DNA of 64,000 nt, taken from NCBI RefSeq assembly GCF_000025625.1, contig NC_013922.1, positions 1,736,001-1,800,000 of the forward strand, given 5' to 3'. This DNA comes from Natrialba magadii ATCC 43099. Lineage in GTDB: Archaea; Halobacteriota; Halobacteria; Halobacteriales; Natrialbaceae. Made by a program: the position numbers and the translations under genes. The notes below the pieces were generated by a model. That model saw only the letters and a list, made by a program, of their open reading frames with translations. It was not told the DNA's origin and did not search any database. This document shows, piece by piece, positions 31,259 to 46,575 of this stretch (within the stretch, counting starts at the first letter, position 1; each line of letters opens with the position of its first letter).

Positions 31259-31282
31259 TCCGGATAGTCGTATTTGTTGTCG

Positions 31283-32464
31283 ATGGTAGAAACGCTTCTC
31301 GTAGTCGGGATTATCGCGTCTGTCTTCGTTGGTTTCAATATCGGGGGATCGTCGACGGGGATCACGTGGGGGCCGTCGGTCGGCGCTGGCATCGTCACGA
31401 AGACGGCCGCGGCAGCGATCATGACCGTGTTCGTGTTCCTCGGCGGGATGACGGTTGGACAGAACGTCATGGGAACACTCAGCGAGGATATCATTACGAT
31501 CGATCTCACGCTCTCGGCTGGCGTCGCCGTCCTCTTCTTTATCGGCCTCGGCATCCTCGTCGCCAACATTTTCGGCGTTCCCGTCCCTACGTCGATGACG
31601 ACCGTCGGTGCAATCGCCGGACTCGGGCTGGCGACCGGGACTCTCAACTACGCGGTGATCGCCGAAATCATCTCCTGGTGGGTCGTGACACCGATCATCG
31701 GCTTCTGGATCGGCGGCATTATCGGGCGGTATCTCTACCCGTGGGTCAACCAGCGCGTCGACATCAAAAGCACCGACGGCCCGCTCCTCAGCCTCGACCG
31801 TCAGGGTGCAGTCCCGAAACCGGCGCTCGGACCGAATACGACCGCCCAGGAACTCGCAACGACGGTCGTCGTCCTCATTATTGGCTGTTACATGGCGTTC
31901 AGTGCCGGCGCGAGCAACGTCCCGAACGCCGCGGCGCCGTTGGTTGGTGAGGCTGGCTTGGAAGTGACACAAGCAGTCATCATCGCAACCGCCGCAATCG
32001 GACTCGGTGGCTTTACGATCGCCAGACGAACGATGGACTCTGTCGGCGGTGAACTGAGCGACATTCCGCTCCTCGCCGCACTATTCGTGATGGTAACTGC
32101 TTCGACGATCACGACCGCGCTCTCCTATATCGGCATTCCAATCAGCCTCGTGATGGCCACCGTCATGACCATCGTTGGCATCGGCTGGGGGCGAGCAACC
32201 CGCCCAATCACGTTCCGAGAGGCCGTCACCCGCGACACCGACGCACAAGACCGCGATATCGAACTGGGTGCGATCGTCGCCGAAGAACAGGAAAGTGAAC
32301 AGGCCCCAGCAATCGGTGAAGAAGAACCCGAAGAAGTGCTCAACGCAGCCGATCTGTTCAATCCACGGGCAGTCATCAAGTACATCTCGATGTGGATCAT
32401 CGGTCCGTCGATGTCGACGCTGCTGGCCTACGGATTCTTCATACTCCTTCCAGGGGTTGCGTGA
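31283..32464 (+). CDS. Inorganic phosphate transporter, PiT family
   Basis: A 393-residue membrane carrier. Both PiT repeats are visible: FVGFNIGGSSTGITWGPSVG near the N-terminus and MAFSAGASNVPNAAAPLVGE in the middle, the latter close to the classic GANDVANA motif. A hydrophilic loop (about 150-180) and an acidic loop (about 315-345) separate membrane parts. It imports phosphate with a cation. It is followed 38 bp later by a UspA gene, a common pairing in haloarchaea suggesting joint regulation. A close but broken paralogue lies at 34045-35267. Confidence 0.92.
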   Translation: MVETLLVVGIIASVFVGFNIGGSSTGITWGPSVGAGIVTKTAAAAIMTVFVFLGGMTVGQNVMGTLSEDIITIDLTLSAGVAVLFFIGLGILVANIFGVPVPTSMTTVGAIAGLGLATGTLNYAVIAEIISWWVVTPIIGFWIGGIIGRYLYPWVNQRVDIKSTDGPLLSLDRQGAVPKPALGPNTTAQELATTVVVLIIGCYMAFSAGASNVPNAAAPLVGEAGLEVTQAVIIATAAIGLGGFTIARRTMDSVGGELSDIPLLAALFVMVTASTITTALSYIGIPISLVMATVMTIVGIGWGRATRPITFREAVTRDTDAQDRDIELGAIVAEEQESEQAPAIGEEEPEEVLNAADLFNPRAVIKYISMWIIGPSMSTLLAYGFFILLPGVA

Positions 32465-32502: not shown

Positions 32503-32931
32503 ATGCTCTCGAAAATTCTCGTGCCGATGGACAGGTCCGAACACGCCGGTCGTGCACTCGAGTACGCGCTCGAAAACGTTCCTGAGGCCGACGTCACTGT
32601 CCTGCACGTCGTCGGCGTTCCGTCGATGATGATGGGCGATGCGGTGGCACTAACGCTTGAGGACGACATCAGCGACGCGGCTGCGAAGCGCGCCGAACCG
32701 GTGTTCGAGTTGGCACACGAAATCGCCGATGAACGGGACCGGGAGATCAAGACGATTGTCGGTATCGGTCATCCGGCACGGAATATCGTCGACCGTGCCG
32801 AGGAGTACGACACGATCGTTCTCGGAAGTCACGGCGAAGACTGGGACCGTGCGACACGTCGATTCCTCGTCGGGAACGTCGCCGAAACAGTGTCGAAACG
32901 CTCACCGGTGCCGGTAACGATCGTCCACTAG
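32503..32931 (+). CDS. Universal stress protein (UspA family)
   Basis: A 142-residue alpha/beta protein with the family start MLSKILVPMDRSEHAGRALEYA and the nucleotide-binding end IVLGSHGEDWDRATRRFLVGNVAE. Compared with the usual G-x2-G-x9-G pattern, three extra residues stand between the last glycines, so ATP binding is uncertain. Because it follows the PiT gene closely in the same direction, a role in sensing phosphate or energy state of the transporter is plausible. It is directly followed by the 21-bp tandem repeat. Confidence 0.92.
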   Translation: MLSKILVPMDRSEHAGRALEYALENVPEADVTVLHVVGVPSMMMGDAVALTLEDDISDAAAKRAEPVFELAHEIADERDREIKTIVGIGHPARNIVDRAEEYDTIVLGSHGEDWDRATRRFLVGNVAETVSKRSPVPVTIVH

Positions 32932-32933
32932 GC

Positions 32934-33038
32934 GCTCACAGTAGTCTACGATTCGCTCACAGTAGTCTACGATTCGCTCACAGTAGTCTACGATTCGCTC
33001 ACAGTAGTCTACGATTCGCTCACGGAAGTCTACGATTC
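32934..33038. repeat. 21-bp tandem repeat, five units
   Basis: Unit GCTCACAGTAGTCTACGATTC, four perfect copies from 32934 and a fifth with two changes (33018-33038). It starts two bases after the uspA stop codon and its last unit runs into the 3' end of the convergent gene. There are no spacers, so it is not a CRISPR. Confidence 0.95.
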
Positions 33039-33776
33039 GGATTCCTCATCGGCTGCGTCGTCCGCAACTGACTCTTCGATGAGTTCTTCGATTTCGTCCT
33101 CGCGTAGACGCCGGTCGACGCGTTCCTCGACGGCGTCGACTTTCGCCTGGACTTCTCCAACCTGTTCTTCGACCGTTTGCTCGACGGTTTCGCCGACTGT
33201 TTCCTCGACGGTTTCGCCGACTGTTTCCTCGACGGTTTCGCCAACCGTTTGCTCGACCGTCTCCTCAACTGTCGCTTGTACCTCTTCAACCTGTTCTTCG
33301 ACCGTCTCACCCACCGTTTCTTCGACTGTTTCGCCGACGGTCTCCTCGACCGTTTCCTCAACCGTCTCGCCCACTGTCTCTTCGACAGTCTCTCCCACCG
33401 TTTCCTCGACTGTTTCCTCGACCTGTGCCTGCACACCCTCGACCTGGCGTTCGACTGTCTCGTCGACCGTCTGCTCGAGGGTTTCGTCGACCGTTTGTTC
33501 AAGGGTTTCTTCGACCGTCTCCTCAACCTGCGTCTGGACGACTTCGACTTCTTTCTCGACGGTTTCGCCGACCGTCTCTTCGACTGCCTGGGTCATCCAG
33601 TCCGGATCGAACCGCGCCATCTTCCAGACGACGTGCACGACGTAAGATGCGAAGACGCCGACACCGAACGCGATTCCGACGTTCGTCTCGACTGTCGCGA
33701 TCAGAACGATCGAGAGCGCGATCAACGCACCGTAGGCGAGATCAACGGCTGCGTCGACACGAACCGGGTTTAGCAT
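33030..33776 (-). CDS. Membrane-anchored repeat coiled-coil protein
   Basis: 248 residues. Residues about 10-45 carry two hydrophobic segments. From about 60 to 215 the protein is built of a four-residue pattern, V-E-E-T / V-G-E-T / V-E-Q-T, broken at intervals by EEQVEEVQATV-like pieces. It ends in a charged helix and an acidic tail. The repeats must form a very long, negatively charged helix or coiled coil projecting from the membrane. No family is recognised; the DNA repeats could mimic many unrelated coiled coils in searches. The ATG at 33776 is preferred because upstream residues look non-coding. It sits between uspA and the broken PiT gene. Confidence 0.72.
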   Translation of the reverse strand: MLNPVRVDAAVDLAYGALIALSIVLIATVETNVGIAFGVGVFASYVVHVVWKMARFDPDWMTQAVEETVGETVEKEVEVVQTQVEETVEETLEQTVDETLEQTVDETVERQVEGVQAQVEETVEETVGETVEETVGETVEETVEETVGETVEETVGETVEEQVEEVQATVEETVEQTVGETVEETVGETVEETVGETVEQTVEEQVGEVQAKVDAVEERVDRRLREDEIEELIEESVADDAADEESES

Positions 33777-34044: not shown

Positions 34045-35267
34045 GTGACGGAAGTACTGCTTCTCGTGGGTATTCTCGTTGCAATCTTCGTCGGCTACAA
34101 CATCGGCGGAGCAACGACGGGGCCAGCGTTCGGTCCGGCGGTTGGGGCGAACGTAATCACGAAAACGATGGCCGCGGCACTCATGTCGATTTTCTTCTTC
34201 ATCGGTGCGGCGACGATCGGCCCGCAGGTCGTCGATACGCTCGGTAACGAGCTCGTTCACGATACGGCAGTGTTTACGATGCGCTCGAACGTCGCCGTCC
34301 TCTTCTTCATCGGCGGCGCGCTATTCGTCGGAAACTACGCTGGTGTCCCAGCCTCGACCTCGATGACGGCCGTCGGTGCGATCGCCGCACTCGGACTCGC
34401 GACGGGTGAACTCGCCTAGGACACGCTCGGCCAGATCGTTATCTGGTGGGTCGTCGCACCAATCATCGGCTTCTGGGTCGCAGGTGTTGTCGGCCGATAC
34501 TTCTATCCGCAGATCAACGAGTGGATCGCGATCGAGGCCAGCCGTGACGGCCGAGAGATGATCACCGTCGACCGGTCAGGCACCGTTCCACGGCTCCAGT
34601 TCGGCGACGGTGCGGACCGCCGGGAGATTACAGGTGCGTTCGTCGTCGTCGGTATCGGCTGTCTGATGGGCTTTTCCTCGGGAACGAGCAACATCGCGAA
34701 CGCGATTGCCCCGATCTACGGCGCAGTTGCTGGCACGGGTACTGAACTCACACTCGGCTCACTGTCGGTCCCGTTCGGAATGCCTGCGCTGATCGTCATC
34801 GGCTCAATCGCCGTCGCAATCGGCTGTTTCACTATCGCACGTCGAACGCTCGATACGCTCGGTAACGACATCACGAACCTGCCGCTGACGGCGGCAATCG
34901 TCGTCGCCGTGGTTAGCTCGACCATCGTCGTTGCTCTTTCCTGGATCGGTATCCCTGCGAGTTTCGTCGTCATCGCGACGATGAGCATCATCGGACTCGG
35001 CTGGGGGCGTGCAACACGGACGACAACGCTCTCTGATGCCAGAGCCGGCGAGGAGACCCACGTCTCCGTCGGTGCACTCACCGCCGACGAAGAGGGTGAA
35101 ACGCCGCCCGAGATCGGGAAGAAGAGCCCGAAGACATCCCAACGGCTGCTGATCTGTTCAACCCATCAACGACGGCCAGGGTGATCCTCATGCAAAATGT
35201 CGTTCCCGTTATCTCCACGGTCGGAGCCTTCCTTACGTTCCGGTTCCTGCCGGTATTCGGCTTCTGA
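34045..35267 (+). pseudogene. PiT phosphate transporter, broken by amber codon and frameshift
   Basis: The GTG at 34045 opens a PiT protein closely similar to that at 31283 (FVGYNIGGATTGPAFGPAVG). An in-frame TAG at 34417-34419 stops it after GELA; the paralogue has Tyr at this place, so TAC has probably become TAG. The same frame then continues (DTLGQIVIWWVVAPIIGFW) through MGFSSGTSNIANAIAPIYG to about 35115, where one base is missing in ATCGG-GAAGAAGAG. In the next frame the match resumes (EEEPEDIPTAADLFNPS) to TGA at 35265-35267. Restored length would be about 407 residues. The alternative is sequencing error, but two separate lesions argue for real decay. Confidence 0.85.

Positions 35268-46435: not shown

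Positions 46436-46575
<140 letters not shown>

Follow-up and report, generated by a model that had tools for sequence, protein, structure and literature searches.

A widespread haloarchaeal family of membrane-anchored, putatively rod-forming proteins with a near-four-residue valine period, often encoded next to PiT-type transporter genes

The DNA analyzed here (hereafter, the window) is a stretch of 64,000 nucleotides from the genome of the archaeon Natrialba magadii ATCC 43099 (contig NC_013922.1, positions 1,736,001 to 1,800,000 of the forward strand), and this study deals with an open reading frame on its minus strand (33030-33776, ATG start). The predicted product of 248 aa consists of a two-helix membrane head and a rod of V-E-E-T-like tetrads, after which come a heptad-like stretch, a module of basic and acidic residues and a short acidic tail. 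As the initial annotation had proposed, the gene lies within a phosphate/stress cluster, whose features are as follows:

31274-32464, plus strand: intact PiT/PHO4 transporter gene (PF01384, 144 bits)
32503-32931, plus strand: universal stress protein (Usp) gene, convergent neighbour of the rod gene (PF00582, 89.8 bits)
32933-33039, no strand assigned: 21-bp tandem array (about 5 copies) in the gap between usp and the rod gene, which converge (Tandem Repeats Finder)
33030-33068, minus strand: variable acidic C-terminal tail and stop codon of the rod gene, with the last bases inside the 21-bp array (from the sequence; the tail is unlike in close relatives)
33069-33155, minus strand: residues 208-236, a C-terminal stretch of heptad-like character plus the conserved basic/acidic module, sharing its first part with the rod end (22 short relatives aligned; loose motif)
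33117-33590, minus strand: residues 63-220, rod of V-E-E-T / V-G-E-T / V-E-Q-T tetrads that includes five 3-residue steps (step count and Fourier analysis; low-confidence AlphaFold helices 58-134 and 142-240)
33591-33776, minus strand: membrane head, residues 1-62 (19 invariant columns in 26 sequences; helices in AlphaFold models)
34045-35264, plus strand: second PiT/PHO4 gene, divergent from the rod gene and broken (profile match and comparison with related loci)

The second PHO4 gene is interrupted by an in-frame TAG and by a frameshift near its 3' end; the copy in N. chahannaoensis (L034) is a single open frame, and the window copy is either a pseudogene or the product of a sequence error. 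The 21-bp repeats are near-identical, contain the palindrome-like GTAGTCTAC and extend into the last codons of the rod gene; six related loci lack the array. Elsewhere in the window, at 46454-46573, about 20 copies of AGACCG make up another array of short period. Long frames are also opened by the rod's repeat array on other strands, and these look like by-products.

Two transmembrane helices are predicted in the head (residues 4-28 and 31-55), which also contains an invariant juxtamembrane motif, WKMxRxDPxWM; the invariant columns of the head include D8, D12, H48 and this WKM-R-DP-WM motif. Since the positive residues R6, K52 and R55 border the two helices, the positive-inside rule suggests that both termini of the protein are cytoplasmic. 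The single-chain AlphaFold model of the window protein contains helices at residues 4-28, 31-55, 58-134 and 142-240 at low confidence (mean pLDDT 61.7), and that of a short relative is likewise helical (mean pLDDT 69.5); these models agree with a helical rod but do not establish one. Together with the predicted transmembrane helices, they are consistent with the membrane-anchored, probably helical rod described in the initial annotation.

After residue 62, almost every fourth position holds valine. V/I/L residues at a spacing of exactly 4 form a run of up to 13 in the 158-residue rod, whereas in 20,000 residue shuffles the longest such run averaged 3.5 and never exceeded 9; the number of i,i+4 V/I/L pairs is 35 versus a shuffle maximum of 21. 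No other of the window's 389 six-frame open frames with 90 aa or more reaches a run of 13, and next comes an opposite-strand frame over the same array, with a run of 10. The complete chain has 36 four-residue steps, five three-residue steps and a single step of eight, and its Fourier spectrum peaks at 3.90 with little power at 3.5 or 4.0. The strict four-residue period originally claimed is thus seen in 13 exact steps in a row, but the rod as a whole departs from it through its shorter and longer steps; the statement that it is not a heptad coil is borne out by a Fourier power of 0.37 at 3.5 versus 6.96 at 3.9. Similarly, the 12-bp and 24-bp DNA repeats reported for the gene were recovered by Tandem Repeats Finder, along with periods of 36 and 153 bp, but they are diverged (67-83% matches) and the regularity sits at the protein level. 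Comparison of the window tetrads gave a pS of 0.73 and a pN of 0.25; because the valine position is fixed by the way in which tetrads were chosen, a second calculation left it out and gave a pS of 0.87 and a pN of 0.32.

Relatives of the protein allow the rod to be viewed as a family trait. Of 114 matches, 24 were dropped as incomplete or identical, and in the remaining 90 distinct complete proteins the period ranges from 3.68 to 4.005 (median 3.96; for L101 and L103 rod length and period refer to the first segment only, since the step chain ends at the first gap). The run of exact-4 spacing has a median of 20, is at least 10 in 67 of the 90 proteins and reaches 51 steps in a Halonotius protein (L105), whereas the highest run among 1371 ORFs of 80 named loci, the family gene excluded, is 10. 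VEET (670), VGET (542) and VEKT (282) are the most frequent among 3149 pooled tetrads, a count that incorporates 19 extra loci with some duplicates, and threonine occupies position 4 in 60% and glycine position 2 in 26% of family tetrads. Two relatives are built largely of exact 15-residue units with steps of 4,3,4,4 (period 3.755). The period range of right-handed coiled coils, 11/3 to 19/5, contains some relatives (e.g., L012 and L028 at 3.755), but neither the window rod (3.90) nor the family median. Overall, the periods of the family form a graded stutter series, from approximately 11/3 through 15/4 and 19/5 towards 4/1.

Protein length varies from 96 to 314 aa, although a contig boundary truncates the shortest row (one row, the second match in L052, is truncated in this way), and two records both named Natrinema hispanicum contain proteins of 202 aa (L047) and 168 aa (L055). 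In agreement with the earlier suggestion of variable length, the rods of relatives differ by 4, 8, 11, 15, 19, 20 or 27 residues (seven pairs, one equal in length), and the indels between close relatives are sums of 4-steps with at most one 3, so that the valine register is kept. Because length varies while register does not, it is unlikely that the rod acts as a precise ruler. Short relatives of 118-133 aa comprise the head, a few rod turns and the module VxxRVDRRPRxDEVEE; as a loose pattern, the C-terminal V-D-R-R-P-R-x-D-E-V-E-E module is found in 57 of the 90 proteins, and it occurs once in the N. magadii genome. In proteins possessing this module, the rod appears to be mostly a variable-length spacer between the membrane and the module. 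In L101, L103 and L131, a VDRRPR-like module is located near the membrane head, ahead of a long rod instead of at its end. The head protein also occurs in a second form, which is shorter, differs at its N terminus and lies upstream of codirectional PHO4 and Usp genes (L050:3073-3540, L098, L100, L114 and L124); L050 has both forms.

The absence of orthologues with conserved ends, which the initial annotation had named as a refutation, was not borne out: besides the C-terminal module, the head is conserved, and the haloarchaeal class sample of 391 genomes from 86 genera contains it in 270 genomes and 69 genera. In the Natrialbaceae, the family of the window, 114 of 125 sampled genomes have a match, and in the phylum sample 59 of 392, all matches listed there belonging to the window's own order (313 unlisted genomes of this sample have no order assignment). 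The N. magadii genome contains one copy of the head. For each of the 78 proteins that have 10 or more tetrads, pN/pS stays under 1 (median 0.51), and, as synonymous divergence is near saturation while the pattern is retained, the tetrads are old and their pattern is kept at the protein level. Pfam and NCBIfam profile searches of the rod protein yielded no match over the cut-off; among eight plasmid records with a relative, six call it a 'hypothetical protein', one leaves it unannotated and one has no feature at that place, and no relative was found in viral contigs. These proteins constitute a real, conserved and unnamed family that is widespread in haloarchaea.

It is the PiT transporter, and not the stress protein, that is conserved as the partner of the rod gene, and the two genes often overlap. 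In a set of 59 loci that covers 31 genera (almost entirely from families other than that of the window, with at most a few genomes per genus, chosen non-randomly and sharing 19 loci with a 99-locus set), PHO4 lies within 1.6 kb of the rod gene in 39 loci, which represent 22 of the 31 genera and several orders, and the arrangements are divergent, same-strand or opposite. Among 27 pairs on the same strand, 9, belonging to 8 genera and 5 families, show stop-start overlap (-1 or -4) of the rod gene with a following PHO4 (L126, L128, L130, L142, L151, L158, L159, L168 and L171; genus and family labels were taken from the class and phylum samples); two of the 29 original loci were omitted, L157 having no transporter start that could be found and L113 being the same gene as L166. 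As the N. magadii genome has only four PHO4 genes, it is very unlikely that the linkage arose by chance. A profile search of the 80 named loci identified PHO4 in 44 and Usp in 36, and a partnership of the rod gene with transporter plus Usp is weakened by the 99-locus set, in which Usp within 2.5 kb is found in 39 loci versus 54 for PHO4. PiT is nevertheless a non-obligate neighbour, because a nearby PHO4 is missing from 20 of the 59 loci, including Halorubrum, and 24 of the 80 named loci, mostly records titled Halorubrum, adjoin Trm1 instead. Neither this link nor the haloarchaea-wide family or its graded period series had been part of the initial annotation, and among the open-licence PMC papers listed for N. 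magadii and Usp, a haloarchaeal PiT/Usp link and PiT accessory proteins, no title or abstract describes the rod family.

Both the linkage and the overlaps fit a PiT accessory class, although in the window itself the PiT genes lie on the opposite strand to the rod gene, the intact one beyond usp. Our preferred reading, held with moderate confidence, is that the encoded protein serves PiT-type transporters of haloarchaea as an accessory, with a cytoplasmic, right-handed helical oligomeric rod. The analysis demonstrates the reading frame, the conserved head, the periodicity, the constraint on the pattern and the genomic linkage with PiT, including the overlaps in relatives; we infer the cytoplasmic side, helix, oligomer, right-handedness, physical contact with PiT and regulation. 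The two-helix head would anchor the protein in the membrane and be the likeliest contact with the transporter, the tail extending into the cytoplasm as an alpha-helical rod. Self-association via the stripe of valine and threonine might then produce a right-handed coil of repeated stutters (11/3, 15/4, 19/5 and further in the direction of 4/1), eased in places by 3-residue steps, and such a rod could either cluster transporters or keep the C-terminal module off the membrane as a docking site or regulator.

One observation against the accessory role is that the divergent PiT gene in the window is broken while the rod gene is intact. This, the 20 loci devoid of a nearby PHO4 and the different but constant neighbourhood in Halorubrum would also be explained by a membrane-bound right-handed helical scaffold that has no specific tie to PiT and organizes the inner membrane surface or other partners, the linkage being an inherited gene order. 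We regard this as distinctly less probable, considering that one inherited order alone would not give divergent, same-strand and opposite orders across families, and that stop-start overlaps recur in 8 genera. Lower still we place an acidic polyelectrolyte tail: a brush, unstructured or single-helix, that forms no oligomer and would serve to fill space or bind cations. The tail of the window protein does have a charge of -62 and no aromatic residue, and pLDDT is low in the AlphaFold models; however, a brush has no need for a valine register with whole-step indels, and a salt-bridged single helix requires lysine or arginine, of which the rod has two each in 158 residues. It is quite improbable that the rod is an amphipathic helix lying on the membrane, as in apolipoproteins or other 11/3-repeat lipid binders: weak matches were obtained to Apolipoprotein A1/A4/E in Pfam (PF01442) and to apolipoprotein E in PDB, but the former scores 12.7 bits, far under its cut-off of 90, and a period-4 stripe turns by 40 degrees per tetrad (at 100 degrees per residue), so that no face stays on a flat membrane beyond a few turns. 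Finally, a non-functional repeat expansion of a short two-helix membrane protein, which the wide length spread and the short relatives might suggest, is the least probable reading of all in view of the near-saturated synonymous divergence with the pattern kept and the presence of the family in most genera sampled.

The preferred reading invites comparison with DUF47/PhoU_div proteins, which include a PiT accessory of Staphylococcus: in passages of one report, the DUF47 gene phoU2/pitR is placed in the pit operon with pitA (PMC7326077). Like those accessory proteins, the rod protein is encoded with a PiT transporter and is predicted to be helical, as DUF47 proteins are; unlike them, it is predicted to be membrane-anchored and rod-shaped, DUF47 proteins forming a PhoU-type bundle. 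PF01865 is absent from the 20 Pfam families listed for the rod protein at E values up to 1. PhoU_div/DUF47 was matched in 77 of 391 class genomes, with no match in the N. magadii genome, and no PHO4 was found within approximately 4 kb on each side of 20 haloarchaeal DUF47-like loci (one of them cut by a contig end), which makes the rod protein the best candidate for a haloarchaeal PiT accessory. By locus, DUF47 is anticorrelated with PHO linkage (6 of 39 linked versus 13 of 20 unlinked, p = 0.00025), but Halorubrum weighs heavily in this count and the relation is not significant by genus (p = 0.077); a swap between DUF47 and the rod gene is therefore not claimed, and the complementary pattern is suggestive only. 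An unnamed gene of most sampled haloarchaeal genera has a strong and checkable tie to phosphate-type transport in a genome in which the usual PiT partner has no match.

With regard to the rod, a PDB sequence search revealed only matches that look compositional and no convincing relative of known structure; the best match, a chain named FD15 at 2.9e-06, has single stretches that are weak. When the short model of low confidence was compared by Foldseek, nothing matched at E <= 0.001. Among the open-licence PMC papers listed for four-residue or tetrad-repeat coiled coils, haloarchaeal coiled coils with tetrapeptide repeats or YadA, no title or abstract describes the family, and passages of the N. 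magadii genome paper mention peptide repeats in general terms only (PMC3403918). The many valine, threonine and glycine residues of the rod, glycine taking a quarter of position 2, are poor helix formers and count against the preferred reading, as does the low confidence of both AlphaFold models. Single alpha-helix (SAH) domains, which are defined by dense i,i+4 E-K/R pairs, resemble the rod in being long charged helices, a candidate form in its case, but the rod lacks the E/K salt-bridge pattern, with 4 K/R in 158 residues.

A closer likeness exists to right-handed stalks with repeats of 11/3, 15/4 or 19/5, such as the A-ATPase peripheral stalk E/G and the YadA stalk, which have a hydrophobic period above 3.63 as does the family. 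Hendecad and quindecad right-handed stalks are described in passages of one paper (PMC6131620), and another, in its passages on periodicity, gives an upper limit of about 3.9 for the coiled-coil period and a local value of 3.8 in YadA as the most extreme known (PMC4786415). Unlike these stalks, the family has a median period exceeding that limit, runs of up to 51 tetrads and a V/T stripe. In a Crick-type estimate, the pitch is 167-169 A at 15/4, 69-73 A at 3.90 and 45-51 A at 4.0, and the radius of curvature drops from 122-152 A to 15-18 A. A continuous period of 4.0 exceeds the limit of about 3.9 and calls for a very tight supercoil, so that a regular coiled coil may not be feasible there; the alternatives are a local distortion of the helix and an assembly other than a standard coiled coil. 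A bolder proposal, which we consider possible but tentative, is that the rods are a natural, true 4/1 alpha-helical assembly, at which the stutter series ends, held past the coiled-coil limit by V/T/G packing in molar KCl, and that the family is the haloarchaeal PiT partner replacing DUF47. Coiled-coil theory predicts which sequence periods helical bundles can hold, and a family that extends in living species from the known 15/4 repeats, exactly shared by two of its members, to an unbroken 4/1 provides a ready-made test of the coiled-coil period limit.
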